Positions 1-19,447 of a stretch of 27,503 nt of DNA are shown here, piece by piece; the stretch's first letter is position 1; the number at the start of each line of letters is the position of its first letter. Below the pieces are notes generated by a model. It did not search any database, was not told the origin of the DNA, and saw only the letters and a program-made list of their open reading frames with translations. The stretch is from Anaerolineales bacterium. GTDB lineage: Bacteria > Chloroflexota > Anaerolineae > Anaerolineales > Anaerolineaceae. A program made the position numbers and the translations under genes. The stretch is taken from contig JAGVAB010000147.1 in the NCBI GenBank assembly GCA_020060485.1, forward strand, positions 1 through 27,503. The letters are read 5' to 3'.

Positions 1-2862
1 CTGGATGGCTTCCCTGCCGTTGAGGGCATTAGCCAGGTGGTAGCCTTTGCTTTCGAGATAGTCCGTCAGGACTTCCAGATTGGAGGGATTGTCCTCAGCC
101 ACCAGGATCAACGGAGCAGTGAGCGGATCAGGCAGCTGCACTGGCGCATGAGCAGACCGCTGTGCGGCAGGGTGATTAAAACCGACCGCATTCATTTTTG
201 GCGTCCAGGGCAGCGAGACGCAGAAGTGGCTTCCCTGGCGGGGAATGCTTTCGACGGTCAGTGTGCCGCCATGCATCTTCACCATTTCGGCAGCCAGAGC
301 CAGCCCCAATCCTGCTCCTTCATACTGGCGGGAAAGGCTGGAGTCAACCTGCTGGAAGGGTGTGAAGATGGTTTGAAGGTTTTCCTCGGTAATGCCGATG
401 CCACTGTCGCGGATGTGAAAGCGCACCACATCAGCCTGAGGGTCTCCTTCCATTTCCAGAAACACATCCCCGCTTTCTGGAGTGAACTTCACCGCATTGT
501 TCAACAAATTCAGCAGGACTTGTTTCAGGCGGCGGCCGTCTCCCTGAAGCAGTTTGACCTGTGGGTCGAGGTTGATGTGCACGGAAAGGCGTTTTTTTTG
601 TGCACTTTCCTGGATGATATCCAGGCTCGACTGGCAGAGCTGGTGGACATCCACCGGCGCGATCTCCAGCTCCAGGCGGTTGGCGCCGATCTTGGCCAGG
701 TCCAGAATGTCGCTGATTAAGGCCAGCAGGTGCTTCCCGCTTTCCTGAATGCGCAGCAGAGTATATTCCTGTTTTTCAGTGAGCGGGCCATAGATCTCTT
801 CCTGCATGGCTTCGCTCAGGCCCAGAATGGCATTCAGGGGGGTGCGCAATTCGTGGCTCATGGCAGCCAGGAATTCATCTTTGGCTTTTGCTGCCCGGGC
901 CAGTTCTTCGTTGGCGATGCGCAGCTCCCTGGTTTGCTGTTCGACTTTCTCGGCCAGCGAGGCGCGCTCCTGCTTAAGGTCATTTTCCAGAGTTTTTTGG
1001 GGCGTAATGTCCATCATCACCCCGATCAGTCCGGCGACATTGCCTTCCAGATCGAAGAAAGGCGCCTTATGCGCCACCATGATATGCCGGCTGCCATCGG
1101 CAAACGTGCCAGGTTCTTCATAGGTTCCGCTCTCAGATCTTTCCATCAGATCCAGATCAATGCCCATCAAATAATCAGCGCGTTCCTTGGGGTTGAAATC
1201 ATAGGCATTGTGTCCAATCAGTTTTTCTTTTTCTATCCCAGAGCTTTGGCTGAACTCCTGGTTGCAGCCCAGGTAGGTTCCCTTGGTATCAATATAAAAT
1301 ATGGGAGTGGGGATGGAGTCCAGAATGCCCTGCACCAGCAGCAGGTTTTCCTGCTGCTGCTTTTCGGCTTCGCGCCGGCTCCAGAAACTGCTGAAAATAT
1401 TGGCCATGATCTGCAACGAGAGGATATCATCCTCAAGCCAGTCCATTTGTTTCGTTTCGGTTTGAAAGCCCAGGAATCCCATCAATTCTTCCCGGTGCAT
1501 AATGGGGATGAGAAGCAGGGACTGGATGCCGAGTTTTCGGCAATGTTCTTTTTCTTTCAGGGCTTCTTCTCCTAGAAGCTGGATGTCATTGATTTGGATG
1601 GTTTCAGTGCGTAACAATTTTTGATAGGACCAGTCCAGGTGCCCTATATTAGTCATTTCTTCATTTTCAGCGCGGGGAGCCACGAATTCGTTTCTCCACA
1701 TGAAATCATTTGCAAAGGAAACTTTGTCTGCCGCCAGAATGGTCAGGTAGCAGCGGTCTGCCCCGGTGAATTTTCCAAGTTCCGTCAGGATTGCCAGAAT
1801 GTTTTCATCAATAGTATGCAAATCCGTATGGATCAATTGCGTGGTAAAGGACACAATCATGGCTTCAGATTGCAGGCGTTGCTCCAGCCGCTTGGCGGTG
1901 CGCCTGCGTTCCTCGATTTCCATTTGCGCCTGGCCGAACAAACGGTTGTTTTCCAGTATCAGAGCCACCGGGCGGGCAAAGGCCTGCATTAACTGCAAAT
2001 CATCTTCTTTATACATCTGGGGTGAATAGCTGTCGATGTTCATGATGCCAATGGCCCGGTCGCTGACCAGCAGGGGAATGCCGATCCAGCTGCGAATATC
2101 TTCTCCGGATGCGAATTTGATCCAGCCCGGCTCTCTGGATACATCCTCGATCATAATGGGCTTTTTGCCAAGGAAAACCCGCACACCGGGGTTTTGATTG
2201 GAGGCATGCACCGGGATTTTCCGGCCGATGATCTCTTCCTGATCTGGATGACCAAGGTTGGCGCGCAACACCAGATACCCGGCTTCGTATAGCATAATGC
2301 TGATGCTGTCACATTCGATGAATTTCCTGAGTTGTTCCAGGATGCGTTCGTGAATGGTTTCCTGGTCCAGGTTGGCCGAGAGCAAGGCCAGGCCCTGTTG
2401 CAGGTTGTCATTGAATTCCTGCTGTTTGCGCAGGCTGGATTCGATCTCTTTGCGCTTTTCAATCTCGGCTGCCATCTGGTTGCGTTCTTCATTGAGAGCT
2501 TCTTTTTGCTGGCGAATGCGTTGCAGCAGGCTGCTGGTCCAGCCCACACCAATCGCACTGGTCAGGAGAAAGAGATTTCCTGCAATGATGATTAATAGAT
2601 TGTTTGACTGGCGGAGATCATAACCCCGCAAGACCAGCAAGCTGGTACCCAGAATGAAGACACCCAGAAAGGAAAGCAAGGCGCCCTGTTTGCCGCACAA
2701 AATGCCGGTAGTGATCACTGGCAGCAATGCCAACCCGCCAGCGACAGGGCCGATGACGGGAAGTAAAAACCAGAAAGCGGTCAGATACAACACGGCCGTA
2801 CTCAGGACGAGGATGATCTTTTGCCGTGCTGATAATGGTGGTTTGAGGTGAAGAAACTTCAT
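1..2862 (-). CDS. Hybrid sensor histidine kinase (4 TM, 2x GAF, PAS, HisKA, HATPase, receiver), 3' end outside window
   Basis: The frame is open without a stop from an ATG at 2862 to the left edge, giving 954 residues. The N-terminus (about residues 15-110) has roughly four hydrophobic segments and is followed by a short coiled coil. Two GAF-like domains lie at about 141-310 and 338-490, and a PAS domain at about 505-628. The HisKA box MSHELRTPLNAILG gives phosphoacceptor His670. The HATPase shows an N box (NLLNNAVKFTP), a G1 box (DSGIGI) and a G2 box (GAGLGLA) between about 768 and 883. A receiver domain starts near residue 915 with the acidic pair E920-D921; its phospho-Asp lies outside the window. 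This is a cytoplasmic-membrane phosphorelay kinase sensing an unknown signal. It follows the hydrogenase operon on the same strand after about 140 bp and appears to have its own promoter. Linkage to the hydrogenase is only inferred from proximity. The family call is firm, the signal is unknown. Confidence 0.93.
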   Translation of the reverse strand, partial: MKFLHLKPPLSARQKIILVLSTAVLYLTAFWFLLPVIGPVAGGLALLPVITTGILCGKQGALLSFLGVFILGTSLLVLRGYDLRQSNNLLIIIAGNLFLLTSAIGVGWTSSLLQRIRQQKEALNEERNQMAAEIEKRKEIESSLRKQQEFNDNLQQGLALLSANLDQETIHERILEQLRKFIECDSISIMLYEAGYLVLRANLGHPDQEEIIGRKIPVHASNQNPGVRVFLGKKPIMIEDVSREPGWIKFASGEDIRSWIGIPLLVSDRAIGIMNIDSYSPQMYKEDDLQLMQAFARPVALILENNRLFGQAQMEIEERRRTAKRLEQRLQSEAMIVSFTTQLIHTDLHTIDENILAILTELGKFTGADRCYLTILAADKVSFANDFMWRNEFVAPRAENEEMTNIGHLDWSYQKLLRTETIQINDIQLLGEEALKEKEHCRKLGIQSLLLIPIMHREELMGFLGFQTETKQMDWLEDDILSLQIMANIFSSFWSRREAEKQQQENLLLVQGILDSIPTPIFYIDTKGTYLGCNQEFSQSSGIEKEKLIGHNAYDFNPKERADYLMGIDLDLMERSESGTYEEPGTFADGSRHIMVAHKAPFFDLEGNVAGLIGVMMDITPQKTLENDLKQERASLAEKVEQQTRELRIANEELARAAKAKDEFLAAMSHELRTPLNAILGLSEAMQEEIYGPLTEKQEYTLLRIQESGKHLLALISDILDLAKIGANRLELEIAPVDVHQLCQSSLDIIQESAQKKRLSVHINLDPQVKLLQGDGRRLKQVLLNLLNNAVKFTPESGDVFLEMEGDPQADVVRFHIRDSGIGITEENLQTIFTPFQQVDSSLSRQYEGAGLGLALAAEMVKMHGGTLTVESIPRQGSHFCVSLPWTPKMNAVGFNHPAAQRSAHAPVQLPDPLTAPLILVAEDNPSNLEVLTDYLESKGYHLANALNGREAIQ

Positions 2863-2896
2863 TTTTCGACCCGAATTTCCACGCAAAGAATTCCGT

Positions 2897-3004: not shown

Positions 3005-3427
3005 TCAATCGTTAATTTCCGCAGTGCTGGCCGGGGCAGGCGGGGCCTGGTTCTCTTCGGCTGAGTTGCGCTCAACCAGGATCTCCAGCAGGTCCTGGTA
3101 GCAGTCTGTGGCTGGATTGAAGTCATTGGTCAGGCGGATGGCTCCCCGATGGCAGCTCAGTTCGCATTGGCCGCAATAGGCGCATTGTGCGGGTTTGTAG
3201 CGGATGCGAAAATTGCGCTTGTCGCTTCGTTCAATCTCCAGGGCTAGAGTAGGGCAATCCCGTACACAAAGCCCGCATCCCAGGCATAGTTCGGGCTGTA
3301 TAATCACCTTGCCGCGAAAACCTGGTGGCAGCTTGAGCGGCTTGAACGGGTAGTCGACTGTCACCGGCGGTTCAAACAGGGTGGCCCATAATTTTGGAAG
3401 CAGATATGCCCAGGGGTGTTTCGCCAT
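3005..3427 (-). CDS. Group 4 [NiFe] hydrogenase, 2x[4Fe-4S] ferredoxin-like subunit (MbhN/NuoI/HyfH-like)
   Basis: This 140-residue polyferredoxin carries two [4Fe-4S] motifs: C48-x2-C51-x2-C54-x3-C58 (CLGCGLCVRDCP) and C82-x2-C85-x2-C88-x3-C92. The spacing is that of NuoI/MbhN. It should pass electrons between an external donor, presumably ferredoxin, and the proximal cluster in the NuoB-like subunit. I chose ATG 3427 because an AAAGGA ribosome site lies about 8 nt upstream; a GTG at 3433 is in frame but too close to it. It is the last gene of the operon, starting 2 nt after the NuoH-like stop. The acidic, Ala/Pro-rich tail after residue about 120 carries no motif. No clear terminator follows before the histidine kinase promoter. 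Confidence 0.92.
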   Translation of the reverse strand: MAKHPWAYLLPKLWATLFEPPVTVDYPFKPLKLPPGFRGKVIIQPELCLGCGLCVRDCPTLALEIERSDKRNFRIRYKPAQCAYCGQCELSCHRGAIRLTNDFNPATDCYQDLLEILVERNSAEENQAPPAPASTAEIND

Positions 3428-3429
3428 AC

Positions 3430-4368
3430 TCACATTCCTTTCCCCATCCAGATCACAAAGGCGATCTGCAGCAGCGACAGCGGGATCATACCCTTCCAGC
3501 CCAAACTGGCAAGCTGATCAATGCGCAGCCGGGCATACATGGCGCTGGCCAGTGACATGCTGGCCAGGATCAGCAGCACCAGAAAGGTGAACAGCAGGAC
3601 GGTGGCCAGTGGGTTTTGCCGAACGCCACCACCCAGGAAGGTGTTGACCAGCAGGAAAGTGCCGACCACGGTCTGGATGCGGTTGGCCAGATGCCAGATG
3701 GCCAGTTTACGGCCGCTAAATTCGGTCAGCGGGCCGGCCAGGGTTTCTGATTTGGCTTTGGGAATGTCGAGCGGATCCCGTTTCAGTTTGCCGATCAATC
3801 CGATCAACGCCAGCAGGAATCCCACAGGCTGCACAAAGACGCCCCAAACTGTGCTGACTTGCTGATCTACAATTTGGCTGATGCTCCATGAGCCGCTCAG
3901 AATGGCTGGTCCGGCCAGGGCCATCAGGAAGGGCACTTCATAGGAAAAGAATTGCAACAGGGCGCGGTTGCCACCCAGAATGCTGTAAACGCCGATGGAA
4001 GACCAGCCTGCCAGAAAATAGAGCAGCGAGGGCAGCGAGAGCAGGAAGAGCACCACGATCAGGTCGCCTTCAAACTGGTGACCGGAAAATCCGGCAACCG
4101 GGATATAAATGCCGGCTGTCAGACAGGCGGTCAATGAGATGACGGGCAGGGCAGTCATGGTTTTATGGCTGACCCCGCCGGGCAGCAGGTCTTCCTTGGC
4201 AAACAGTTTGATCAGATCGGCCAGAGGCTGGATCAGGGGCGGCCCCACCCGCCCCTGAAAGCGGGCGATCAGGCGGCGGTCGACCCATTCGGCCAGCAGC
4301 GCACAACAGAATTGAAAGCCGAGGCCCGGGAAGATCAGCAGTTTGAGCAAGTCTTTCATCCAGTCCAT
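3430..4368 (-). CDS. Group 4 [NiFe] hydrogenase membrane anchor subunit (MbhM/NuoH/HyfC-like)
   Basis: This 312-residue polytopic protein has about eight hydrophobic segments. It is NuoH-like, with the early GRVGPPLIQPLADLIKLFAKE stretch (about residues 40-60) and the charged loop containing KSETLAGPLTEFSG, which matches the conserved Glu-rich loop of the NuoH/MbhM family. In this family the subunit anchors the peripheral redox arm and begins the charged axis leading to the antiporter subunits. It starts 21 nt after the large-subunit stop. The Shine-Dalgarno site is weak (GGA about 9 nt upstream). The length fits MbhM (about 310-320 residues). Family assignment is firm; the ion translocated (H+ or Na+) cannot be read from the sequence. 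Confidence 0.92.
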   Translation of the reverse strand: MDWMKDLLKLLIFPGLGFQFCCALLAEWVDRRLIARFQGRVGPPLIQPLADLIKLFAKEDLLPGGVSHKTMTALPVISLTACLTAGIYIPVAGFSGHQFEGDLIVVLFLLSLPSLLYFLAGWSSIGVYSILGGNRALLQFFSYEVPFLMALAGPAILSGSWSISQIVDQQVSTVWGVFVQPVGFLLALIGLIGKLKRDPLDIPKAKSETLAGPLTEFSGRKLAIWHLANRIQTVVGTFLLVNTFLGGGVRQNPLATVLLFTFLVLLILASMSLASAMYARLRIDQLASLGWKGMIPLSLLQIAFVIWMGKGM

Positions 4369-4389
4369 AGTATCTGTCCGGCTTCCTTC

Positions 4390-5472
4390 CTACCGGTCGG
4401 CGCAGGCGATGCACAGATCAACGCCGGAAACCACTGCCGAGACGTCTGCCAGGTTAATATTGCGCAACTGATCATGCAGACATACCAGGGCGGTCAGCGA
4501 TGGTGTGCGAATCTTGACGCGGGCCGGGCGGTCGCTGCCATCGCTGCGCACGTAATAGATCAGTTCGCCGCGCGGCGCTTCGGTGCGACAGACCACTTCG
4601 CCGGGCGGCACGCGGCGTTTGGCGGCGACTGCCACTTTTCCTTCCGGCAGTTCTCTCAGAATTTGCAGGCACAGGTCCAGACTTTCCCGGGCTTCCTGAA
4701 TGCGCAGCATGGTGCGGCCCCACACATCCCCTTCCTGGCGGGTGATGACTGAGAACTGGAGCTGGTCATACACACTGTATGGTGCGTCCCGGCGCAGGTC
4801 AACGTCCACGCCGGAGGCACGCGCAATCGGCCCAACCACACAGTACTTGCGGATCTGCTCCGGCGTCAGCGTACCGATGTCATGCGTACGGGCCTGGAAG
4901 CTGGTCTCATGCGCCACCAGGTCTTCCAGGGCGGTGATCTTACGGCGAAGGTCTTCCAGCCGGCGGCTCATGACCTGCCGCTGTTCATCGTTGATATCCA
5001 CCCGCACCCCGCCGATCACGTTCACGGCATGTGACACGCGTCCGCCGGAGAGTTCTTCCATCAGATCAAGGATGATTTCGCGATCACGCCAGGAGAACAT
5101 GAAGATGGTTTCAAAGCCCATGTTCTTGGCCAGCACGCCCAGCCAGAGCAGGTGGCTGTGTACCCGTTCCAGTTCGCAGAAGAAGGTGCGCAGATACTGA
5201 CCGCGCAAGGGGGCGGTGATGCCGGACAGCATTTCAACCGCCATGCAGAAGGTGGTGGTATGGACGTGGGAACAGATGCCACACACCCGTTCGAACAGAT
5301 GCACGTTCTGTATATAGCTGCGCGATTGACTGAGGCGTTCGATGCCGCGGTGTACATACCCCAGGCGCAGTCCACTTTCGACCACCTTTTCGCCTTCCAG
5401 GGTCAGCAGGAAAGATAGCGGTTCTTTCAGCAAGGGGTGTTGCGGACCGATGGGTACGGTGATACGGCTCAT
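4390..5472 (-). CDS. Group 4 [NiFe] hydrogenase large (catalytic) subunit (MbhL/HycE/NuoD-like)
   Basis: This 360-residue protein is NuoD/HycE-like. The N-terminal L1 motif ERVCGICSHVH gives C64 and C67; the C-terminal L2 motif DLCIACADR gives C354 and C357. All four cysteines that bind Ni and Fe in [NiFe] hydrogenases are therefore present, whereas the Nuo/Fpo subunits have lost them. This supports real H2 chemistry. Two features are odd: the usual Pro after the L2 Asp is Leu, and the protein stops three residues after C357, leaving no room for the cleavable tail removed by HycI-type proteases. The start overlaps the NuoC-like gene by 4 nt (ATGA) with an AGAGGG ribosome site. Alternatives such as a sulfane-sulfur reductase (MBS) are disfavoured by the four cysteines. 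Confidence 0.93.
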   Translation of the reverse strand: MSRITVPIGPQHPLLKEPLSFLLTLEGEKVVESGLRLGYVHRGIERLSQSRSYIQNVHLFERVCGICSHVHTTTFCMAVEMLSGITAPLRGQYLRTFFCELERVHSHLLWLGVLAKNMGFETIFMFSWRDREIILDLMEELSGGRVSHAVNVIGGVRVDINDEQRQVMSRRLEDLRRKITALEDLVAHETSFQARTHDIGTLTPEQIRKYCVVGPIARASGVDVDLRRDAPYSVYDQLQFSVITRQEGDVWGRTMLRIQEARESLDLCLQILRELPEGKVAVAAKRRVPPGEVVCRTEAPRGELIYYVRSDGSDRPARVKIRTPSLTALVCLHDQLRNINLADVSAVVSGVDLCIACADR

Positions 5473-5927
5473 GATCCCTCTTTATTCCCTTCTTCATCTG
5501 GTTCCAGACGCATGGGAAAGGACTGTCCATCCCAATCATCTGGCAGGAGCAGCGGCTGGTTTTGCTGCAAGCCTGAAAATTTGACGCCAAACATTTCCAG
5601 CACTTCCCGTTCATAAAACATGGCGCCGGGGATCAGGTCGGTCAGACTGTCGATGCGGGGTTCCTGGCGGGGCAGGTTGATGTGCAGGCTTAATCCCTGG
5701 CGGTCCCAAAAATGATAGAAGAGTTCAATTTGCTGGCCGTTGTCCACGGCCGTGATGGTGGACAGGTGCTGGCAACCGGAATGCGCCAGCAGCCAGATGA
5801 CCACCTCGCGCAGGTCTGACGCGCCGATCCGTACCACGTGTTCTGCGACCGGCATGGTACGTACGTCCTGGATCCTGTGCATGAAGATTGCCTTCATGCG
5901 GGCGACCACAAAGCTGATGTCAGTCAT
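5469..5927 (-). CDS. Group 4 [NiFe] hydrogenase NuoC-like subunit (MbhK/30-kDa family)
   Basis: This 152-residue soluble protein carries the 30-kDa (NuoC) signature near its C-terminus: YEREVLEMFGVKFSG followed by LLLPDDW and an acidic tail. This is a variant of the canonical ER-x-x-D-x-x-G-x-F-x-G then LLP-x-D-W pattern. NuoC/MbhK-like subunits are structural, packing against the large and small subunits in the peripheral arm. The gene is separate, unlike the NuoCD or HycE fusions. It overlaps the small-subunit gene by 4 nt upstream and the large-subunit gene by 4 nt downstream, so translation is probably coupled. The role is inferred from the family; no catalytic residues are expected. Confidence 0.9.
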   Translation of the reverse strand: MTDISFVVARMKAIFMHRIQDVRTMPVAEHVVRIGASDLREVVIWLLAHSGCQHLSTITAVDNGQQIELFYHFWDRQGLSLHINLPRQEPRIDSLTDLIPGAMFYEREVLEMFGVKFSGLQQNQPLLLPDDWDGQSFPMRLEPDEEGNKEGS

Positions 5928-6358
5928 TTTACTTTCCCCAGTAATTTTTTCAAGCCCTCAACGATCATCTCTGGCCGGCAGGGGCAGCCCGGCACATATA
6001 AATCGACCGGGATGACTTGATCCACCCCGCCCAGCACGGTATTGCTGCCCTTAAAAATGCCGCCCGAGCAGCCGCAACTTCCCACTACCAATACCCATTT
6101 GGGTTCAGGCATTTGTTCATAGATGTGACGCAGGCGGTCGCGCGACTGCCGCGTGACCGGGCCGGTACACAGCAGAATGTCCGCGTGGCGCGGTACGCTT
6201 TCCTGGCGGATGCCAAGGCGTTCGACATCGTAACGCGGGGTCAGCAGGTCGAGGAATTCGATATCACATCCATTGCAGCTGCCACTGTTGAAGTGCAGGA
6301 TCCAGGGCGATTTGCGCCTTGCCCAGCGGATAATCTTTCGGGTCAGGGTTCCGGTCAT
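5924..6358 (-). CDS. Group 4 [NiFe] hydrogenase small subunit (MbhJ/HycG/NuoB-like)
   Basis: This 144-residue protein binds the proximal [4Fe-4S] cluster. The visible ligands are C28 and C31 (GSCNGCDIEFLDLLTPR), C95 in GSCGCSGG and C125 in PGCPCRPE. The CNGCDIE-x-LD-x-LTPR-x-DVER-x-G pattern is typical of group 4 small subunits. The frame stays open upstream, but I chose ATG 6358: a GAGGAG ribosome site lies about 8 nt upstream, and 6358 follows the NuoA-like stop (6360-6362) directly, whereas the longer form would overlap that gene heavily. The basic N-terminus (residues 6-16) is usual. The gene overlaps the NuoC-like gene by 4 nt. Confidence 0.93.
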   Translation of the reverse strand: MTGTLTRKIIRWARRKSPWILHFNSGSCNGCDIEFLDLLTPRYDVERLGIRQESVPRHADILLCTGPVTRQSRDRLRHIYEQMPEPKWVLVVGSCGCSGGIFKGSNTVLGGVDQVIPVDLYVPGCPCRPEMIVEGLKKLLGKVK

Positions 6359-6359
6359 T

Positions 6360-6692
6360 TCAGAACTCCTCTTCGGTGAGCACGAATATGCTTGCGCTGG
6401 CGCCCAGCAAATAAAACAGCGCCAGTCGCTGGGGCATGGCATTCAGCGGCAGGGTGGAGATCACCAGGGCGGCCATGTGCAAAACGCTAAACAGCAGCGC
6501 CATCCAGAAGAAGGACTGGTAATGCACCTGGCCAGTGGGCGGCGGCACTTCTTCTCCACCGGTATAGGTTTGGTGGCGGGCATGATGCGGTTTTTCCAGT
6601 GAGGTTGCTTGCCCGGCCAGATAATGGATACCAAAGCCCAGCACCAGAAAGAACAGAAAAGCCATAAATGGTTGCAGCAGGAATGAATTCAT
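6360..6692 (-). CDS. MbhI/NuoA-like small membrane subunit
   Basis: This 110-residue protein has three hydrophobic segments, at about residues 5-25, 58-78 and 86-105, with a long loop between the first two. This is the NuoA topology. The loop and second helix (TYTGGEEVPPPTGQ then YQSFFWMALLF) follow the NuoA pattern in which a Y-E-C-G loop leads into a F-x-x-A-x-L-F helix, but the conserved loop Cys is replaced by Gly. The position, between the antiporter genes and the small subunit, is that of mbhI in archaeal Mbh operons. It probably helps join the peripheral arm to the membrane arm. A GGAGG site lies about 10 nt upstream. The assignment rests on topology, loop pattern and gene order, so it is less secure than its neighbours. 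Confidence 0.78.
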   Translation of the reverse strand: MNSFLLQPFMAFLFFLVLGFGIHYLAGQATSLEKPHHARHQTYTGGEEVPPPTGQVHYQSFFWMALLFSVLHMAALVISTLPLNAMPQRLALFYLLGASASIFVLTEEEF

Positions 6693-6698
6693 TGCGGT

Positions 6699-8174
6699 TC
6701 AACCTCCCCCCAGCCAGATGGCCGCGGGCACCAGCCAGGTCACCCAGGGGCCAGGGAAGACGCTGGCGGCCAGGATCAGACTGCCCAAAGCGATCAGGGG
6801 TAATGCCATCCAGGCGGACATTTGTGGAACTGTCAGCGCTGCCCGGCTGCTGGCAGGCTGTCTGGCGAACAATTTGACGATGAGCGGCAGATAGTATCCC
6901 AGCGAGATCAGGCTATTTAACAGGAAGAAGGCGGTGCCGGCCAGGGCCAGCGGCTGGCCGCTATCCAGTGCCATGGCGAGAATGAACCACTTGCCGGAAA
7001 AGCCAGCCAGGGGCGGCAGCCCGGCCAGCCCGGCTAGGGCAATGCCCATGCAGAGCGCTGCCAGAGGCAGTTGTTTGGCGATGCCGCGCAATTCCTCAAT
7101 GCTGGTGGTCTGGCAGTAAAAATGGCAGACGCCTTTGGAAAGGAAGGCCAGCGACTTCAGGGCGGCATGGATCACCAGGTAGAGGAACCCGGCCTGGACG
7201 GCCAGCGGCAGGCCAAAGCGCAGGCCAATGCCAAAGCCGAACAGAATGTAGCCCATCTGGGCGATGGATGAAAATGCCAGCAAGCGTTTGACATGGGTTT
7301 GAACCAGGGCCATCATGTTGCCCACGATCATATTGGCAAAGGACAGCCAGATCATGACCAGTCCCAGCGTTTGCCTGGGCAGGCCAAGCCCCAAGCCCAC
7401 CCGCAGCCAGGCGAAGAAACAACCCTGGATGATGATGCCTGAAAGCAGGGCGCTGATGCTGCTGGGGGCGCGCCCGTGAGCGTCTGGCAGCCAGGTGTGC
7501 AGCGGTACCATGGCGCTTTTGATCCCCAACCCGATCAGGGCGCAGATCAGCCCGGCCCGCCCCCAGGCACCGGCTGTCCATGCCTGCTGCGGAATGAGGA
7601 TCTGCCCGGTTGCCCGGTAGACCCAGGCCACCCCCAGCAGGAGCAGGATGGTACCTACGCTGCCCATGATCAGATATTTGAATCCGGCTTCAATGGCGGT
7701 GTTGGTCTGGCGGCGGAAAGCCACCAGCACATAGGCACAGATGCTCATCCATTCTGCAAACAGGTACAGCAGGAACAGATCTGCGGTGTAGACCATGCCG
7801 ACCAAACCCGCCATGGTGAGCAGCAGCAAGGGATAATAGGTTTTATAGCGGTGATCCTGTCCCAGGTAGGTGCCTGAAAAGATGCTGACCACAAACCCCA
7901 GCGCAAGGGCAATTCCGGCAATCAGCCGCGAGGCGCTCTCGCCAGGCCAGATCAGATCGCCCTGCACCAAAAAATCGCCCGCAAATGCCTGCAATTCTGG
8001 CACAATTGCCTGATCAGGATTGAGTGTAAACAGCAAATTGCGCCCTGCCAGAATGAAGATGATGGCTGTGCACAAGGCCAGGGTTTCATTTTGTGCAGAA
8101 AACAGGCGTGCCAACAGGTAGATTGCCAGAGCGCCAGTCGCCAGGATCAGGATCGCATGGAAAGCCAAATTCAC
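6699..8174 (-). CDS. Antiporter-like proton-translocating membrane subunit (NuoN/MrpD-like)
   Basis: This 491-residue polytopic protein has about 14 hydrophobic segments. It keeps the charged residues of the proton_antipo_M family: E141 in YLFAEWMSI, K219 in GLGIKSAMVPLHTWLPDAH, K340 in HAALKSLAFL and K395 in GFSGKWF. It should translocate ions in the membrane arm. The start is GTG 8174, overlapping the last base of the upstream TAG stop, with a GGGAGG ribosome site about 7 nt upstream. I call it NuoN-like because TM12 carries Lys and because of its place after the NuoL-like and NuoM-like genes. Subtype within the antiporter family is uncertain; an ion-pumping role is likely. Confidence 0.9.
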   Translation of the reverse strand: MNLAFHAILILATGALAIYLLARLFSAQNETLALCTAIIFILAGRNLLFTLNPDQAIVPELQAFAGDFLVQGDLIWPGESASRLIAGIALALGFVVSIFSGTYLGQDHRYKTYYPLLLLTMAGLVGMVYTADLFLLYLFAEWMSICAYVLVAFRRQTNTAIEAGFKYLIMGSVGTILLLLGVAWVYRATGQILIPQQAWTAGAWGRAGLICALIGLGIKSAMVPLHTWLPDAHGRAPSSISALLSGIIIQGCFFAWLRVGLGLGLPRQTLGLVMIWLSFANMIVGNMMALVQTHVKRLLAFSSIAQMGYILFGFGIGLRFGLPLAVQAGFLYLVIHAALKSLAFLSKGVCHFYCQTTSIEELRGIAKQLPLAALCMGIALAGLAGLPPLAGFSGKWFILAMALDSGQPLALAGTAFFLLNSLISLGYYLPLIVKLFARQPASSRAALTVPQMSAWMALPLIALGSLILAASVFPGPWVTWLVPAAIWLGGG

Positions 8175-9640
8175 TACAACCCTCCCAGGATCAAGCGTAG
8201 CTCCTGTTCAATCCAGGCAAAAACAGGCGCGGGGAACAAGCCTGCCAGCAAAGTCAGCACAGCCAGCACCACGGTTGGCAGACGCATGGCAGGCGGTATA
8301 CGAATCAAGGTTTGCCCGGCATCTGCTTCTCCCAGAAAGATGCTGGTGAAAAACCGCAGCCCATAGGCCACCGTCAGCAGGGAACACAGCACCATGACGA
8401 TGGTCAACCCGGGGTAGAGGGTGTGAAAGCCGCCCGAAAAGATCATCCACTCGCTGCTGAAGATGGCCAGCATGGGCACCCCGGTGATGGCCAGCACCCC
8501 GACTGCTGCACACACGGCAGCCAGCGGCATGCTTTTCAGCAACCCGCCCAGGCTGGAAATCTGCCTTTTACCCGTGGCGTGGATCACCAGCCCCACACAC
8601 ATGAAGAGCAGTGCCTTGACCACCCCGTGATAGATCACATGCAGGGTGGCGCCAGCCAGCCCTTCGTGGGTGAGGGTTCCGACGCCGAACAGAATATAGC
8701 CCATCTGGCTGACGCTGGAATAGGCAATGACGCGCTTGATGTCCTGTTCGGCCAGCGCCATCAAAGCCCCATAAATCTGGGAGATCAACCCGGCTATCAT
8801 CAATGGCAGGGCAAAGCCGGTCATCTCGGCGAGTGAGAAGATGCTCAGCGGGAAGCGCAGGATGCCATATACGCCCATGCTCAACATGGCTGCCGCCAGC
8901 ATGATCGTGACCGGCATGGGGGCAATGCTGTGTGCGTCCGGCAGCCAGATGTGCAGGGGGAAAATGGCCATTTTGATCCCGAAGCCGATCAGAAACATGG
9001 TGGTGATGATCTTCACCGTGGCCGGTGCCAGCACAAGTCCGGACCGGAGCACCACGAAGCTGTCGCTCCCGGCAGCATCGTAGAGCACGATCAATCCTAC
9101 CAGCACCAGCAGGGAACCCAGATGAGTAATCAGGAAATATTTTAAGGCTACTGCTCCGGTGTTCTTCCCCTCTCCCCAGACCAGGATCAAAATGCAGGAG
9201 GCGATCAGCATCAGTTCCCAAAAAAAGTAGAACAGAAAAACGCTGTCGGCCAGGGTGGTGCCAGACATGCCCACGGCAAAGGCCAGCAGCAGGGCATAGA
9301 AATATGGTGTGCGTTCATCCCGGTGAACATAACCCAGGGCATAGATCGCCGCAAACAGGGTGACCAATGCCTCGGTGACCAGGAAGGGAAAAGTGAGCCA
9401 GTCGACATGCAGGATGAGATGAATGCCGGCCTGGGGCAGCCAAGGCAGATCGAGGCGTGGCTCCAGGCCTTTGTTCAACAGCGGCAGCAAGGCCAGGGTG
9501 CAAGCCAGGGTCAGGCCGGCGGCGGTCAGCGTCAGCCAGCCAGCCAAACCAGACACCACGCGCCTGACCAGCACCAGGAATAGCGCCATGCCCACGGGGA
9601 TGACAAGAATACTGAGTAAAAGTATTGTTTCAGTGTTCAT
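8174..9640 (-). CDS. Antiporter-like proton-translocating membrane subunit (NuoM-like)
   Basis: This 488-residue polytopic protein is a canonical NuoM/HyfB/MrpD-type subunit. The key residues are E142 in FFWELMLI, K223 in GIKMAIFPLHIWLPDAH, K342 in HGVVKALLFM and E397 in IFSSEWMIF. The last is an acidic residue in TM12, as in NuoM. The IKRVIAYSSVSQMGYILFG stretch (about residues 301-319) is the family hallmark around the broken helix TM8. It lies 25 nt after the NuoL-like stop with AAGGA about 10 nt before the ATG. It is the best conserved of the three antiporter-like subunits here, so it is most likely to have a working ion channel. Confidence 0.92.
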   Translation of the reverse strand: MNTETILLLSILVIPVGMALFLVLVRRVVSGLAGWLTLTAAGLTLACTLALLPLLNKGLEPRLDLPWLPQAGIHLILHVDWLTFPFLVTEALVTLFAAIYALGYVHRDERTPYFYALLLAFAVGMSGTTLADSVFLFYFFWELMLIASCILILVWGEGKNTGAVALKYFLITHLGSLLVLVGLIVLYDAAGSDSFVVLRSGLVLAPATVKIITTMFLIGFGIKMAIFPLHIWLPDAHSIAPMPVTIMLAAAMLSMGVYGILRFPLSIFSLAEMTGFALPLMIAGLISQIYGALMALAEQDIKRVIAYSSVSQMGYILFGVGTLTHEGLAGATLHVIYHGVVKALLFMCVGLVIHATGKRQISSLGGLLKSMPLAAVCAAVGVLAITGVPMLAIFSSEWMIFSGGFHTLYPGLTIVMVLCSLLTVAYGLRFFTSIFLGEADAGQTLIRIPPAMRLPTVVLAVLTLLAGLFPAPVFAWIEQELRLILGGL

Positions 9641-9665
9641 TCCAACCGTCCTTGCTTGTCAGGAT

Positions 9666-11441
9666 TCATCCACCGGCTCCGTTCAGGCCGATGATAAGAA
9701 CAGCGATCAAAGCCGCCGCCACCCACATCAGGTTAACGCGCAGGCGTCCGGTATGGGCGCGGCTGAGCAGCCTGCCAACCGCCAGAAATCCCTGGACTAG
9801 CAGATGCAGCCCGGCTTCAAGGGTAGCCTGCTCAAAAACTTCGTATAGCCGCCTGGCAATCCTGGTTATGATTTGAGCTGCCTGGTTCATTCCTTGCTGG
9901 TAGATATCGACCTCTACAGACTTGTAGAGGGTCTGGGGCAGTTGTCTGGCGCCTGCGCTCCAGTTGCGCCAGCCTCTGCTGGTTAGGCTTTCGAACTTCT
10001 CGAACCAGCGCAATTTGCTGACGATCCAAACCACGAGCAGCAGACCCCAGAATGCAGGCGAGAGCAGAGGCAGTGAGGTCAGGCTGGGCCGGGTGAAGGT
10101 TGAACGCAGCGTAGAGATCTCACTGGCATGCAAAGGGGTGAACAGAAGGGGAGTGGCGATGAATAGCAATACCACCACCGGCATGCCCCATTTCAGCTCA
10201 TGTTCATGGCGGTCAGGCCAGTTGGCCACAGTCTTTCTGGGTGCTGGTGATGTTTCCTTCCAGCTTTTGACCAGCCACAAGATCAGCAATGCCAGGCTGG
10301 CTTCTGCAATCCAAAAGTCAACCTTGTTGTCTCCCTGCTGCTGCACAGCCCAGATCACCACAAAGGCGTAAATGCCCAGCAGCAGTCCGCCGCTGAACCG
10401 CGTCAGTCTTTCGCGGACTGCGGCCGAAAACCGGATCAGACCATGGCCAAGCCAGAGAAAGCGCAGCAGGCTGGCTGTCAGCATTCCGCCCCAAACCAGG
10501 GCCTCCAGATGATGTACGGCTGCAAACATGGTCACAGCACCCAGAAAGGCAAACAGTCCCCACATGCTTTCTTGCAGGTCTTTTCTTCCCCAGGCGTAGA
10601 TCAGGGCGGCCAGCGCACAGATGGCTGCCAGCAAGGAGATCATATTTTGTATGGGTGCTGTGCGGGTCAACAGGGGGGCGGTGCGGAACAGGAGGTACAT
10701 GCCCAGGTTGGGCATGACAGTGGCCAGGAACCAGGCCCTGATCATCATGGAGGTTGTTTCGGCAGCTGCATTCTGCCAGAAGACAAACGGCCAGAGGCCT
10801 GCCTTGACCCACACGGCCAGGGCAAAACCGATGGCGATCCATTGTAAAATGACCTCCGGCAATTCGCCGGCCAGGCCCAATGCCAGCGAGATGTCCAGCG
10901 AGGTGCCGGAGTAGATCAACAGGATGATGGCGATCAACAGGCCGGCATCCCCGAGCCGGAGTCCCAGGTACAGGCGCTGGCTGCTCTGCCTGCCTGCGGC
11001 TAGCAATTGCACCACAGCGATCCCCAGGGCGGCAAATTCCAGGGCGGCATAGCGCAGGAGGAAATTGCCTGCCAGAAAGGCACTGTTGGCGGTGGTCAGC
11101 ACGAAAAGGAACAGGCCATCCTGCCACCAGGTTTGTGCATGGCGGTCTTTCATACCAGTCAGGTAAAAGATCAGTCCGCTGGCTGTGGTCCAAAAGGCTG
11201 CCATCAGTCCCCAAAACTCAAACTTGAAGTACAGCGGCCCCTTGCCGGGCCACCATTCAGACGAAAGCGACAGGTTGGCATCTCTGAGCAGCAAAGCGAT
11301 CAGCAGGCAGGCCAGCACCACTCCCACGCTGCCTGCGGTTGCCCAATCCCGCAGGGTTTTGGGTAAATATCGTCCGGCTGCCATCAGGAGGATACCCATG
11401 ATCAATGGATACCCGATGACCCCCCATCCCAACACTTCCAT
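9666..11441 (-). CDS. Divergent NuoL/MbhH-like antiporter subunit with C-terminal lateral-helix-like segment
   Basis: This 591-residue polytopic protein occupies the NuoL/MbhH place in the operon. It keeps E135 (RYAALEFAALG) and K213 (VWVKAGLWPFVFW), the equivalents of the TM5 Glu and TM7 Lys. The usual LPDA and HAATMV motifs after TM7 are replaced (QNAAAETTS then IRAWFLA), and I find no Lys at the TM8 HAxxK site. The region after residue about 490 fits the NuoL C-terminus: a VDIYQQGMNQA segment, a long amphipathic stretch (about 515-560) and a final helix after HTGRLRVNL, resembling the lateral helix HL and TM16. It may be structural or have an altered proton path. Homology to NuoL is moderately secure; function is not. 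Confidence 0.82.
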   Translation of the reverse strand: MEVLGWGVIGYPLIMGILLMAAGRYLPKTLRDWATAGSVGVVLACLLIALLLRDANLSLSSEWWPGKGPLYFKFEFWGLMAAFWTTASGLIFYLTGMKDRHAQTWWQDGLFLFVLTTANSAFLAGNFLLRYAALEFAALGIAVVQLLAAGRQSSQRLYLGLRLGDAGLLIAIILLIYSGTSLDISLALGLAGELPEVILQWIAIGFALAVWVKAGLWPFVFWQNAAAETTSMMIRAWFLATVMPNLGMYLLFRTAPLLTRTAPIQNMISLLAAICALAALIYAWGRKDLQESMWGLFAFLGAVTMFAAVHHLEALVWGGMLTASLLRFLWLGHGLIRFSAAVRERLTRFSGGLLLGIYAFVVIWAVQQQGDNKVDFWIAEASLALLILWLVKSWKETSPAPRKTVANWPDRHEHELKWGMPVVVLLFIATPLLFTPLHASEISTLRSTFTRPSLTSLPLLSPAFWGLLLVVWIVSKLRWFEKFESLTSRGWRNWSAGARQLPQTLYKSVEVDIYQQGMNQAAQIITRIARRLYEVFEQATLEAGLHLLVQGFLAVGRLLSRAHTGRLRVNLMWVAAALIAVLIIGLNGAGG

Positions 11442-11448
11442 GCTGGCT

Positions 11449-11772
11449 TTATCCTTTCAATTCGTTCATTTTGTCTGTATCCCCATCTGGGTAGTGGATA
11501 TAGACATTGACGATAAGCGCCAAAGCAATGGCAATGATGACAGTCTCCACAATCACCGCCGAGATCGTCATGGCCTGGGCCAGGTGTGGATCCTGATGGA
11601 TCTTCCCGGCGTGGATCAATGCCAGCGCCACGCCCTGCAGCATGATCTTCAGGCTGATGACCTGCTTGAAGACGGCTTTCTGGATCAGCATTCCGCCAAA
11701 TCCGGTGATGACCAGAATGATTGAGACAGCGGATAGCAGTCCATCCACCGCAGGAGGTACGGTTTCATTCAT
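11449..11772 (-). CDS. MbhG/MrpC/NuoK-like small membrane subunit
   Basis: This 107-residue protein has three hydrophobic segments and the NuoK/MrpC pattern, with ISLKIMLQGVALALI in TM2 and AMTISAVIVETVIIAIALAL in TM3. E76 falls near NuoK Glu72 (E. coli). The NuoK Glu36 position is Lys42 here; MrpC/MbhG proteins usually have a small polar residue there. I chose ATG 11772, which overlaps the upstream gene by 8 nt and has AAGGAC upstream. The longer frame to 11826 would overlap the upstream gene by 62 nt and adds a Pro/Cys-rich stretch unlike the family. The position before the NuoL-like gene matches mbhG before mbhH. Confidence 0.85.
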   Translation of the reverse strand: MNETVPPAVDGLLSAVSIILVITGFGGMLIQKAVFKQVISLKIMLQGVALALIHAGKIHQDPHLAQAMTISAVIVETVIIAIALALIVNVYIHYPDGDTDKMNELKG

Positions 11773-12019
11773 CCTTTTTGTCCTTCCGGCTGGGCAGCAG
11801 GGTGGCAATTCCCAATGCGCCGGCAAAGATCAGACCAATCTGCACGGCCAGGTCTGGGCCGCGCTGCTGCCAAAACCAGTATTGGAAGCTGGTTTCCAGT
11901 AGTTGCTCGTTGAAGGCAGCCGTCTGCCCGAAATGTTCCCATACCAGCTTTCCTCCCCACAGGATCAACAGGAGAATGCCAGCCTCCACCAGCCAGGAGA
12001 AAGAGCTCTTCCGCTTCAT
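11765..12019 (-). CDS. MbhE-like small membrane subunit
   Basis: This 84-residue protein has two hydrophobic segments, at about residues 8-22 and 55-75. Its second half, YWFWQQRGPDLAVQIGLIFAG, resembles the MbhE/MrpB pattern in which an ILxDYRGxDTLGE stretch leads into a helix. Gene order supports this: it lies between the MbhD-like and MbhG-like genes, exactly as mbhE does in Mbh operons. No separate MbhF follows. The ATG overlaps the stop of the MbhD-like gene (ATGA) and the preceding bases supply GGAGAGG as ribosome site. The protein is short and the match is by pattern only, so the assignment is moderate. Confidence 0.72.
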   Translation of the reverse strand: MKRKSSFSWLVEAGILLLILWGGKLVWEHFGQTAAFNEQLLETSFQYWFWQQRGPDLAVQIGLIFAGALGIATLLPSRKDKKDE

Positions 12020-12270
12020 GGTTCATCCTCTCCCCGCGGGGTTTTGGTCAGGCTAATCACAATGATCATCAGAATGCTGGTCAGACCGGCCCCCACGCTC
12101 AGCTCGAAACCGGCTGCAAAGGGCGCTTTTAAAAGGAAAAACACCACCGCCAGGGCAGTGCTGCCAATGCCCAATGCAACGGCCGCCCGGAGGATGCTGC
12201 GGGTCAACATGCTGTAGATGGCAGCCGTTAAGAGCACCAGACACGGGATCAGATAGCCCAAGAATTGCAT
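12016..12270 (-). CDS. MbhD/NuoJ-like small membrane subunit (DUF4040-like), first gene of the hydrogenase operon
   Basis: This 84-residue protein has three hydrophobic segments. The stretch LLKAPFAAGFELSVGAGLTS resembles the MbhD/MrpB (DUF4040) pattern in which an A-D-x-A-x-T-E-A-x-V-G-A-G-L core leads to the last helix. NuoJ is related and is the alternative name. I chose ATG 12270 because an AAGGAG site sits 7 nt upstream; the open frame extends to 12312 but has no ribosome site there. It is the first gene of the operon and overlaps the MbhE-like gene by 4 nt. Position and pattern together make the call likely. Confidence 0.78.
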   Translation of the reverse strand: MQFLGYLIPCLVLLTAAIYSMLTRSILRAAVALGIGSTALAVVFFLLKAPFAAGFELSVGAGLTSILMIIVISLTKTPRGEDEP

Positions 12271-12638
12271 AAGGAACTCCTTATGTTTACTACTGGTTTG
12301 TGTTTGTTTCATGCATGCACAGGCCCAGGTTCAATGGTTTAAAATTTTCAGGCCCGCAGAAGATGCTGTGTCGCCGGTGATTCGAATGAATCGATAATAG
12401 CTTGCAAAAGGCTCCCAGTTGATGAGATGAGGCTGCAAGAGCTTTTTGATGTTGAATATTATATCTTATAACCTCTCTGGTTGGTAGCTTGCCGATTCTT
12501 TTTTGATTCGAGGCAGGGCTGGCTGCCATGCATGTGATCTTTTCTTTTGAGAAAACCGCTGCGACTTGAGAGAATCCCTTCAGCCGAAGTATAATCATGC
12601 TCACAGGAAGATCAAAAAAAACCTTCAGGAGGCAGCGC
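12271..12638. promoter_or_regulatory. Divergent intergenic region between hydrogenase operon and purD
   Basis: This 368-bp region holds no convincing gene. On the minus strand a TATAAT lies at 12458-12463, which would give the hydrogenase operon a leader of about 180 nt; no matching -35 is visible, so the promoter may need an activator or lie elsewhere. On the plus strand is the strong purD promoter, listed separately. The AAGGAG ribosome site of the first hydrogenase gene is at about 12277-12283. I see no clear operator repeat or riboswitch. Confidence 0.4.
12566..12602 (+). promoter_or_regulatory. Sigma70-type promoter of purD
   Basis: TTGAGA (12566-12571) and a perfect TATAAT (12590-12595) are separated by 18 bp. 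Transcription would begin near 12602. That excludes the in-frame ATG at 12597 and supports ATG 12639, which is preceded by an AGGAGG ribosome site at 12627-12632. A second TTGAGA occurs 19 bp upstream at 12547-12552. Confidence 0.65.
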
Positions 12639-17395: not shown

Positions 17396-19447
17396 ATGAT
17401 TGGATTGATCATGACAAATAACACATCTTCTCAAATGAAAATCATTTTGAATGGCGTCATCACCCTGCTGCTGGCCGGATTGATGTGGGGCGTTTACCGG
17501 GAAATGGATGCCTGGTTTCGTCCGCAACTGGTGCATGCCACGCGTATCTCGTTTGGCGTACTGACAGCTTTTGCGTTTGAACTGTTGATCTCAGCTGCTG
17601 TGCTGGTGGCAGTCTGGCGGCCGGCCTGGTTGGTGCCACTCAACCGCCTGCGCCAGCGTCTGGGCTGGGCACGCTGGCTGCTGATCGCCTTGCTGGCAGT
17701 GGCTGCAGGCCTTTTCTTGCTGGTTGAAAAGAGCCAGATGTTCAATGGGGTTTATGCCCGCTTTAGTCTGGTCCTGTTCTATTTGAGTATAGCCACCTGG
17801 CTGGCAACTGAGGAGGCACACCAAAACTGGTCATGGAAGGGCCTTTTGACTGGCAGCCTTTTCTTCTCGCTGGTTTTCCTGTTTGCTGTTCGTTTTCAAA
17901 AAGTGAGCAATTATCCATTCTCCCAATTCTGGTCGGAAGGCAATCGTCTGTGGGATTATTCCATCCCCTTTGGCCGGCGGCTGTATAACTACCCGGCCGG
18001 GGAGAAGATCTTCAGCTTGACAGATGTTGGCCGCCGCACCCTGTGGGGGCTGCCTTATTTGCTGCCGGGGGTGCAGATCTGGATGCTGCGTTTTTGGGAT
18101 GTGCTTATGTTCACCCTGCCATATTTCCTGCTGGGTCTGGCCGTATTCCGTCAGGAACGTAAAACGAATTTGCGGCTTTTCCTCTTGCTGGGGGTATGGT
18201 TCATGCTTTTCCTGAATCAAGGGCCGATCTATTCTCCGCTGGTGTTGGCGGCTATTCTGGTGGTTCTGGCGCACAAATCGCCTTATTGGCTGAATGTGCT
18301 TTTGGTGCTGGTTGCCAGCTATTATGCCCGCACCAGCCGCTTTACCTGGATGTTTGCTCCGGGTATGTGGGCGGCGATGCTGGCCTTTCTTGATCAGGAT
18401 TGGGAAGAAACCACGGGCTGGGTGAAAAACTGGCTGCAGCCTATTCTGTTAGGGGTGACGGGTTTTATCGGCGGCTATCTTTTGCCGGATTTTGTTAAAA
18501 GTTGGACGACCAGGGCTACTCTGGGGTATCCCGGGGCGGTGGCGCAATCCGGGGTGCTGAGCCTGGAAGGCATTCAACAGACTACCGGGCGTCAGCCTTT
18601 GTTGTGGGAACGGCTCTTGCCTAATTCCACCTACACGCCGGGCATTTTGCTCGGTTTGCTGATCGCCGTTTCTCCGTTGGTTATCTGGTTGATTTATCTG
18701 CTGGTCAGCAAAAACTGGAAGTTGAATACATGGCAAAAGCTGGCGGCAGCGGCTTTCATGGCGGCTTTTCTGGGTGTTGGGTTGGTGGCCAGTGTCAAGA
18801 TTGGCGGCGGCAGCAATCTGCATAATCTGGACATGTTCCTGATCGGTCTGCTTTTGCTGGCCGGCCTGGCGTGGAAGGCGGGTGGGCGGGAGACCATTCT
18901 TCAGGCTGTTCCCGGCTCATTGTGGCTGCGGCTGGTTTTGGCTGCCCTTGTTTTGGTGCCTGCCGCGGCTGTCATTCAGGAAGCCGGAGCAACCAGGTTC
19001 CCCCCGGCAGGGATCACTGGCGAGGCGCTGGCCGCTACCCAGGCGGCAGTCAATGAGGCCCGCCAGAAAGGCGAGGTTCTTTTCCTTGACCAGCGACAAC
19101 TGCTCACCTTCGGCCATGTAGGCGACGTGCCGCTGGTAGTTGAATACGAAAAGAAGAAGGTCATGGATGAGGCGATGGCAGAGAACGAGAATTATTTTGC
19201 CTCTTACTATGCTGATCTGGCGGCTCACCGTTTTGCTTTGATCATCTCGGAACCGTTGCGCGTGGAATTCCAGGGAGATGTTTACCATTTTGGCAATGAG
19301 AATGACGCCTGGGTGAAATGGGTTTCAATTCCCATGCTGTGTTACTACGAACCCCTGGCCACGTATCCTGAGGTTGGCCTGGAATTGCTGGTACCGCGGG
19401 CGCAGCCAGAATCGCCTGTCGAAGGCGTGCCCTGTCCCATACCCTGA
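17396..19447 (+). CDS. Large polytopic membrane protein with soluble C-terminal domain
   Basis: This 683-residue protein has a hydrophobic N-terminal segment, then about 12 further hydrophobic segments up to residue about 545. A hydrophilic C-terminal domain of about 140 residues follows, rich in Glu and Tyr (for example VEYEKKKVMDEAM and NENYFASYYADL). The layout, a multi-TM core followed by a soluble tail, resembles GT-C glycosyltransferases and other cell-surface glycan proteins. I cannot point to a clear catalytic Asp motif, so no function is assigned. The start is uncertain: ATG 17396 has only AGG upstream, and ATG 17411 is an in-frame alternative. It ends about 20 bp before a strong terminator shared with the convergent 630-residue membrane protein. 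Confidence 0.85.
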   Translation: MIGLIMTNNTSSQMKIILNGVITLLLAGLMWGVYREMDAWFRPQLVHATRISFGVLTAFAFELLISAAVLVAVWRPAWLVPLNRLRQRLGWARWLLIALLAVAAGLFLLVEKSQMFNGVYARFSLVLFYLSIATWLATEEAHQNWSWKGLLTGSLFFSLVFLFAVRFQKVSNYPFSQFWSEGNRLWDYSIPFGRRLYNYPAGEKIFSLTDVGRRTLWGLPYLLPGVQIWMLRFWDVLMFTLPYFLLGLAVFRQERKTNLRLFLLLGVWFMLFLNQGPIYSPLVLAAILVVLAHKSPYWLNVLLVLVASYYARTSRFTWMFAPGMWAAMLAFLDQDWEETTGWVKNWLQPILLGVTGFIGGYLLPDFVKSWTTRATLGYPGAVAQSGVLSLEGIQQTTGRQPLLWERLLPNSTYTPGILLGLLIAVSPLVIWLIYLLVSKNWKLNTWQKLAAAAFMAAFLGVGLVASVKIGGGSNLHNLDMFLIGLLLLAGLAWKAGGRETILQAVPGSLWLRLVLAALVLVPAAAVIQEAGATRFPPAGITGEALAATQAAVNEARQKGEVLFLDQRQLLTFGHVGDVPLVVEYEKKKVMDEAMAENENYFASYYADLAAHRFALIISEPLRVEFQGDVYHFGNENDAWVKWVSIPMLCYYEPLATYPEVGLELLVPRAQPESPVEGVPCPIP

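Follow-up and report, generated by a model that had tools for sequence, protein, structure and literature searches.

A twelve-gene group 4 [NiFe] hydrogenase operon of Anaerolineae with counterparts of the core subunits of complex I

Within a stretch of 27,503 nucleotides from an Anaerolineales bacterium (contig JAGVAB010000147.1; hereafter the window), twelve genes on the minus strand encode a group 4 [NiFe] hydrogenase in which all eleven core subunit types of respiratory complex I are represented, NuoJ being split in two. Judged by its sequence, the large subunit (LSU) belongs to a conserved Anaerolineae clade that lies outside the sampled membrane-bound hydrogenases (Mbh) and on the complex I side of a branch (98/87) of the tree. 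We consider it fairly probable that the complex is a reversible ferredoxin:proton hydrogenase that has the predicted topology of complex I and pumps protons, and the operon may have conserved a stage on the way from ancient hydrogenases to the mitochondrial proton pump.

The twelve open reading frames (ORFs) run from 12312 to 3005 in the order D-E-G-L-M-N-A-B-C-LSU-H-I (Table 1), and all of them are open and adjoining or overlapping, without a frameshift. The original prediction had set the edge of the operon at 12270, which is an ATG inside the first gene, D; a start is possible at 12312, and the edge has been corrected to that position. The operon itself proved real, as its ORFs are contiguous, its products match the expected families and the same order is found in relatives. 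Pfam and NCBIfam scans of all twelve proteins gave family names for ten (MbhD, NuoK, three Proton_antipo_M, NuoB, NuoC, NuoD, NuoH and 4Fe-4S NuoI), and no Pfam match was obtained at 0.01 for A (110 aa) or for E (84 aa), the latter having none at 1 either. These scans bore out a gene order resembling mbhD-E-G through to mbhN, and they revealed no counterpart of mbhA/B/C or MbhF among the twelve genes, as had been expected. The proposed NuoL-M-N order of three antiporter-like subunits was likewise borne out by the scores of each profile against chains in the PDB. As also predicted, subunits for NADH or formate input are lacking, since none of the twelve genes encodes NuoE/F/G, a formate dehydrogenase or an F420 subunit; the rest of the genomes was not searched for NuoE/F/G.

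The gene set is conserved within the class. In a sample of 396 genomes drawn evenly from Anaerolineae, 24 carry a large subunit that is 52-80% identical to that of the window (clade A), and a gene set conserved in this many genomes is more than chance. The nearest named relative (80% identity) comes from a metagenome-assembled genome of Ornatilinea (Anaerolineaceae, Chloroflexota), and 12 genomes in a phylum sample of 400 match at E 1e-100 or better, all of which are also in the class sample. The synteny survey found all twelve genes in the order of the window in 12 of the 24 clade A loci, with two loci counted as complete in which C and LSU lie within one open frame (L044) or N occupies two frames (L055); 8 of the 24 are cut by contig or stretch ends. 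Of 120 listed database members, 4 carry a NuoC-NuoD fusion. The place of M is covered by 21 loci, of which 18 have the gene and three do not (L048, L050 and L051, the last being cut before D and E). One further locus, L040 (G023), is cut upstream and shows neither H nor I in the 6 kb following the large subunit, in contrast to the other clade A loci that cover this part. A more distant group with large subunits 42-48% identical (clade B) is represented here by 11 loci (L060-L070), which, with 3 other loci, are a part of the matches listed at that identity. One unsplit D+E protein is encoded in all 9 clade B loci covering it; 8 of these have two recognisable antiporter-like subunits, and L070 has one. 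A search for accessory genes next to the clade A operon gave 48 clusters, and the 12 that were inspected are apparent out-of-frame readings of the operon.

Table 1. Genes of the hydrogenase operon in the window, in order of transcription.
Gene	Position	Strand	Length (aa)	Assignment	Basis
D	12016..12312	-	98	MbhD / N-terminal part of NuoJ	PF13244 8.9e-8 over cut-off, PF00499 2.6e-7
E	11765..12019	-	84	MbhE / C-terminal part of NuoJ	shared ORF with D in clade B
G	11449..11772	-	107	MbhG / NuoK	PF00420 9.7e-15 on longer frame
L	9666..11441	-	591	NuoL-like distal antiporter subunit with lateral helix	profile against PDB chains
M	8174..9640	-	488	NuoM-like antiporter subunit	TIGR01972 over cut-off; NdhD/NuoM best
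N	6699..8174	-	491	MbhH/NuoN-like antiporter subunit	PF00361; TIGR01770 below cut-off
A	6360..6692	-	110	NuoA/ND3-like, MbhI position	PF00507 in aligned members; profile against PDB chains
B	5924..6397	-	157	NuoB/MbhJ, hydrogenase-type CxxC ligands	TIGR01957, PRK06411 over cut-off
C	5469..5927	-	152	NuoC/MbhK	PF00329 2.7e-26
LSU	4390..5472	-	360	NuoD/MbhL [NiFe] large subunit	PF00346 and PF00374
H	3430..4368	-	312	NuoH/MbhM	PF00146 2.1e-70
I	3005..3433	-	142	NuoI/MbhN, two [4Fe-4S] motifs	Fer4 families

The peripheral arm is the minimal J-K-L-N set that had been proposed, with four Ni cysteines (CGIC and CIAC) in the large subunit and two [4Fe-4S] motifs in I. Both CxxC pairs of the large subunit recur in each of the 24 clade A loci; L075 and L076, the two rows of complex I, are without the four cysteines, and the GPQHP motif is shared with complex I. 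In B, for which an ATG at 6397 and a further opening at 6442 are found in the same frame, the cluster ligands C41, C44, C108 and C138 are conserved in 23 of 23 rows, and in I the first four cysteines are kept in 22 of 22 rows and the second four in all 21 rows with a letter there. HypD is present in 21 of the 24 genomes carrying the clade A operon. Thus both the four Ni cysteines expected of a group 4 [NiFe] enzyme and Hyp maturation in the relatives' genomes were found, and a misread complex I with chance cysteines was set aside on the recurrence of the Ni cysteines together with HypD.

The C-terminus of the large subunit differs between the two clades. In the window and in all 24 clade A loci it ends three residues past the last Ni cysteine, so that an endopeptidase would have no tail to remove. 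Of the 11 clade B large subunits, 9 extend 10-43 residues past the last cysteine, and the same 9 have a HycI-like gene downstream (six were scanned with Pfam, all over the cut-off, and the three others were recognised via a profile of those six); the two tail-less members, L064 and L065, have no HycI-like gene within 9.4 and 6.0 kb downstream, respectively. The HycI profile matched nothing in the 24 clade A loci, where the downstream stretch examined was 0.3-10 kb, and a HycI peptidase occurs in 4 of the 24 genomes. This pattern is consistent with a functional NiFe centre in clade B and with maturation that needs no tail in clade A. Tail-less large subunits are known in group 4, as in CooH, and those of the aldehyde-oxidoreductase-linked loci L071-L073 have no C-terminal tail either.

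An unrooted tree of 65 large subunits recovered clade A (100/99), clade B (100/100), A+B (98/90), Mbh (100/99) and complex I (100/100), and a branch with support of 98/87 has A+B and complex I on one side and Mbh, Hyc and the aldehyde-oxidoreductase-linked group on the other. In approximately unbiased (AU) tests, a clade of A with Mbh was rejected (p 0.0097), as was one of A+B with Mbh (p 0.0185). The designation Mbh-type in the original prediction thus held as far as a group 4 hydrogenase is concerned and was not supported with regard to membership in the Mbh lineage; on the side of NuoH, H scored 119 bits with complex I against 80 with Mbh (Mbs 103; formate hydrogenlyase, FHL, 55). A plain Mbh was set aside on the AU tests and the missing Mrp-type subunits. 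A clade of A with complex I was not rejected (p 0.39), which leaves more than one branching order next to complex I compatible with the data. Clades A and B also lie with complex I on one side in the trees of NuoB (94/79) and NuoH (54/56); the clade A+B is absent from the best of these trees, yet was not rejected (p 0.31 and 0.28, respectively). The large-subunit tree took 12 of the 120 listed Mbh relatives and none of the 120 listed database LSU members, and a warning of long branches was issued for the complex I rows. Unannotated plasmid rows from Phyllobacterium, Paenibacillus and Nonomuraea, to which we gave the Nuo label, fall with complex I. HycE, the Hyf of Rhodovastum and L074 form a clade of their own (100/100), with the LSU of the window outside it. 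A second group 4 large-subunit type was observed at L071, L072 (G001), L073 and L077, and a relative of this type on an Azospirillum lipoferum plasmid adjoins an aldehyde ferredoxin oxidoreductase gene and HypA.

Mbh/Mrp-type and complex I-type features are mixed in the membrane arm. The proposal of an architecture intermediate between the two enzymes is supported. D and E resemble the halves of a split NuoJ/MbhDE, because the profiles of E and MbhD match one single longer ORF in 9 clade B loci; assigning E as MbhE through Pfam was set aside, no match being available. The helix ELSVGAGL of D is of the Mbh/Mrp type, not the NuoJ type, with its Glu in 14 of 16 rows. In G, Lys is found in 15 of 17 clade A rows at the site of Glu in two complex I rows, and a second Glu is invariant (17/17). 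The gene originally called MbhI does hold the mbhI position, and its product, A, is itself NuoA/ND3-like: PF00507 was matched by 15 of 20 aligned members (E 0.037 for the window protein), and in the PDB every one of the 21 chains that the profile matched up to E 5 is a NuoA/ND3, the best at E 0.0011. As MbhI is described as filling the ND3-loop role in Mbh as well (PMC11228991), this likeness alone does not separate complex I from Mbh.

Among the antiporter-like subunits, the profile of L ranks 21 NuoL/ND5/NdhF chains before all others, followed by 5 chance matches to gp41 (E 0.05-0.23). M scores best with NdhD (206 bits), then with NuoM and MbhH (182 each), and N with MbhH (6cfw_H, 194 bits), then with Mbs (137) and Nad2 (135). 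The homology of MbhH is given as Nqo12 (NuoL) in the relevant passage of PMC11228991 and as MrpD/NuoM/NuoN in that of PMC7419157, and where the two differ, our assignment of the MbhH counterpart followed the present profile scores. The earlier suggestion that MbhH had been replaced by three subunits is right in number and is better described as the retention of an MbhH/NuoN counterpart with the addition of NuoM and NuoL. The channel-charge sites of M were assigned by motif to what we take to be the complex I positions, and all four charges are conserved throughout the 19 rows. N retains three Lys in 22 of 22 rows and Glu in 18 of 22. Across the 21 rows of L, the acid of the type found in transmembrane helix 5 (TM5) is Glu in 15, Asp in 5 and a gap in 1, the TM7-type Lys is present in 20 with 1 gap, and the Lys after it is replaced by Arg in 19. 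In L041, L044 and L058, the lateral-helix region of L was seen by eye to consist of near-repeats of about 30 residues that vary in number between members. The idea that a longer lateral-helix linker accompanies M was dropped: the median is 124 residues (33-293) in 16 loci with M versus 44, 68 and 87 in those without it, and the difference (p 0.050) is not relied on.

Genome context bears on the likely electron donor and on the ion. A POR domain occurs in all 24 genomes carrying the operon, an FeFe hydrogenase in 4 and a canonical-like NuoD (E below 1e-90) in 4. MrpG was found in none of the 24, where MrpB, E and F were not searched; a control search for MrpG gave matches in 6 of 14 named genomes. 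Given a gene set without NuoE/F/G, formate dehydrogenase or F420 subunit, and POR in every genome, ferredoxin would be the simplest donor. It would reduce the two clusters of I, from which electrons would pass over the cluster of B to the NiFe centre in the NuoD-type subunit, placed where complex I reduces quinone, and protons would there be converted reversibly to H2. Loops of LSU, B, H and A may then relay the redox change to H and the J/K helices (D, E and G), from where the signal would run along N, M and finally L. According to PMC7419157, the redox arm of Mbh lies on the opposite side of the antiporter subunit compared with complex I, and counterparts of MrpB/E/F/G occupy the other side. 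With L, M and N in series, NuoA present and MrpB/E/F/G lacking, the J/K end would be free and the N end occupied by M, which makes a complex I topology the simpler arrangement; from gene content we predict that the redox arm is joined to the J/K end, like that of complex I and unlike that of Mbh, which lies beyond the antiporter. Proton pumping is more likely than sodium pumping, given that counterparts of MrpB/E/F/G are missing from the operon and MrpG from the genomes. What the sequences show are genes, motifs, conservation, trees and patterns of loss, and from these the donor, topology, direction, ion and stoichiometry are inferred.

Several observations weigh against a proton-pumping hydrogenase of this topology. 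N, D, E and G resemble Mbh parts, and among solved chains the large subunit scores best with 6cfw_L of Mbh (268 versus 222 for the best complex I chain). The support values of the NuoB and NuoH trees are unstarred, and these trees have fewer references and no Mbh rows. All trees are without Ech, CooH, Fpo, Mbs, Ehr, Eha, Ehb and 4g of other phyla, so the placement holds only within the sampled sequences, and MrpG alone stood for Mrp in the genome searches. The TM12-type position of L is a gap in 15 of 21 rows and Glu in the window, and L looks half-degenerate as a pump in most relatives, not clearly so in the window. In addition, the reaction from ferredoxin to H2 in Mbh is reported to work on about 60 mV (PMC7419157), which would hardly pay for three pumps. 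Possible answers to this energetic puzzle are low H2 in syntrophy, a degenerate L, the loss of M in some members and reverse operation.

The last of these, taken as the main mode, is the strongest competing explanation, and we regard it as unlikely: proton motive force would drive H2 oxidation and ferredoxin reduction, with the long membrane arm serving as a high gear. Three antiporter-like subunits are indeed many for the small energy between ferredoxin and H2 (PMC7419157, PMC10212512), and M and N keep their channel charges; POR in all 24 genomes and an FeFe hydrogenase in only 4, however, suggest a need to shed ferredoxin electrons, and the subunit set by itself sets no direction. Still less likely is an enzyme of the Mbh type that keeps the Mbh topology, is coupled to sodium and has gained two antiporter subunits at its far end. 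The Mbh-like gene order, the best match of N with MbhH and of LSU with 6cfw_L and the Mbh/Mrp-like D would all agree with it, but the AU tests rejected both groupings with Mbh, MrpG is missing from the 24 genomes and MbhA/B/C/F from the twelve genes, and H is closer to complex I. A complex that is no hydrogenase in practice, such as a ferredoxin:quinone or other oxidoreductase like NDH-1 or the Ehr complexes, is very improbable in view of the four Ni cysteines in 24 of 24 loci, HypD in 21 of 24 genomes and the PF00374 match, even though GPQHP is shared with complex I and many of the 120 database members listed bear the name NADH-quinone oxidoreductase subunit D.

The route from hydrogenases to complex I is still open, and an intermediate is wanted because the redox arm sits on one side of the antiporter in Mbh and on the other in complex I (PMC7419157). 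Tentatively, and with more doubt than confidence, clades A and B may be seen as living members of the hydrogenase lineage that gave rise to complex I, having its topology already (redox arm at the J/K end, NuoA, two to three antiporter subunits and a lateral helix) and a site that is still NiFe. If this is true, the NiFe centre was lost only after the topology had changed, and members differ in the number of pumps, which acts as a gear. With an extant NiFe enzyme that has the complete subunit set of complex I, a single structure would make the order of events testable. For complex I, it has been put forward that antiporter subunits scale in number with the redox energy and that NuoL is the only exit for protons (PMC10212512); because the TM12-type position is missing from L in 15 of 21 rows and M and N keep theirs, the operon offers a natural test of both ideas.

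Other genes were noted in the window. A hybrid GAF/PAS sensor kinase (1-2886, minus strand) follows the operon on its own strand, 118 bp further downstream. The product of 23664-24107 (plus strand) is a NADAR-type riboflavin-intermediate N-glycosidase (TIGR02464 over cut-off), which the anti-phage NADAR model matches below its cut-off, and two large ORFs of 683 and 630 aa, at 17396-19447 (plus strand) and 19533-21425 (minus strand), have no Pfam or NCBIfam match at 0.01.

In searches of the open-licence full-text literature we recognised no description of this gene set among the papers listed, and met no published name for clade B; a group IV Mbh of Chloroflexi is named for RBG-2, without subunit detail in the passage concerned (PMC3971608). 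Compared with the Mbh of Pyrococcus furiosus (6cfw, HydDB group 4d), the window shares the four Ni cysteines, the minimal J-K-L-N arm, the gene order, the MbhD/E/G-type subunits and an MbhH counterpart, whereas it is without MbhA/B/C/F, has an extra NuoL and NuoM, and so three antiporter-like subunits instead of the one MbhH, and differs in an H nearer to complex I and an LSU outside the Mbh clade. Hyf/formate hydrogenlyase (4a) is also a group 4 hydrogenase, and Hyf, too, has several antiporter-like subunits; the window is distinct in lacking a formate dehydrogenase, in having NuoA, J and K and in an LSU of another clade. The hydrogenase-related Ehr complexes have lost the Ni ligands, which the window keeps. 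Compared by description only, HydDB group 4g, 'Ferredoxin-coupled (putative), undetermined role' (PMC5037454), fits the window, but the 4g examples described in the relevant passages are Mrp-linked (PMC8542988) or have an antiporter-like subunit (PMC12533140). Clade B, the sister clade, resembles the window in its LSU and its complex I-like gene order, and departs from it in the unsplit NuoJ, two antiporter-like subunits in 8 of 9 loci, and a tail with HycI in 9 of 11. Finally, each member of the 11-subunit core of respiratory complex I (NuoA, B, C, D, H, I, J, K, L, M and N) has a homologue in the window, NuoJ as D and E, while the window has no NuoE/F/G among its genes, a NuoJ that is split and Mrp-type, Lys in place of the NuoK-type Glu, and a NiFe centre where complex I has its quinone site.

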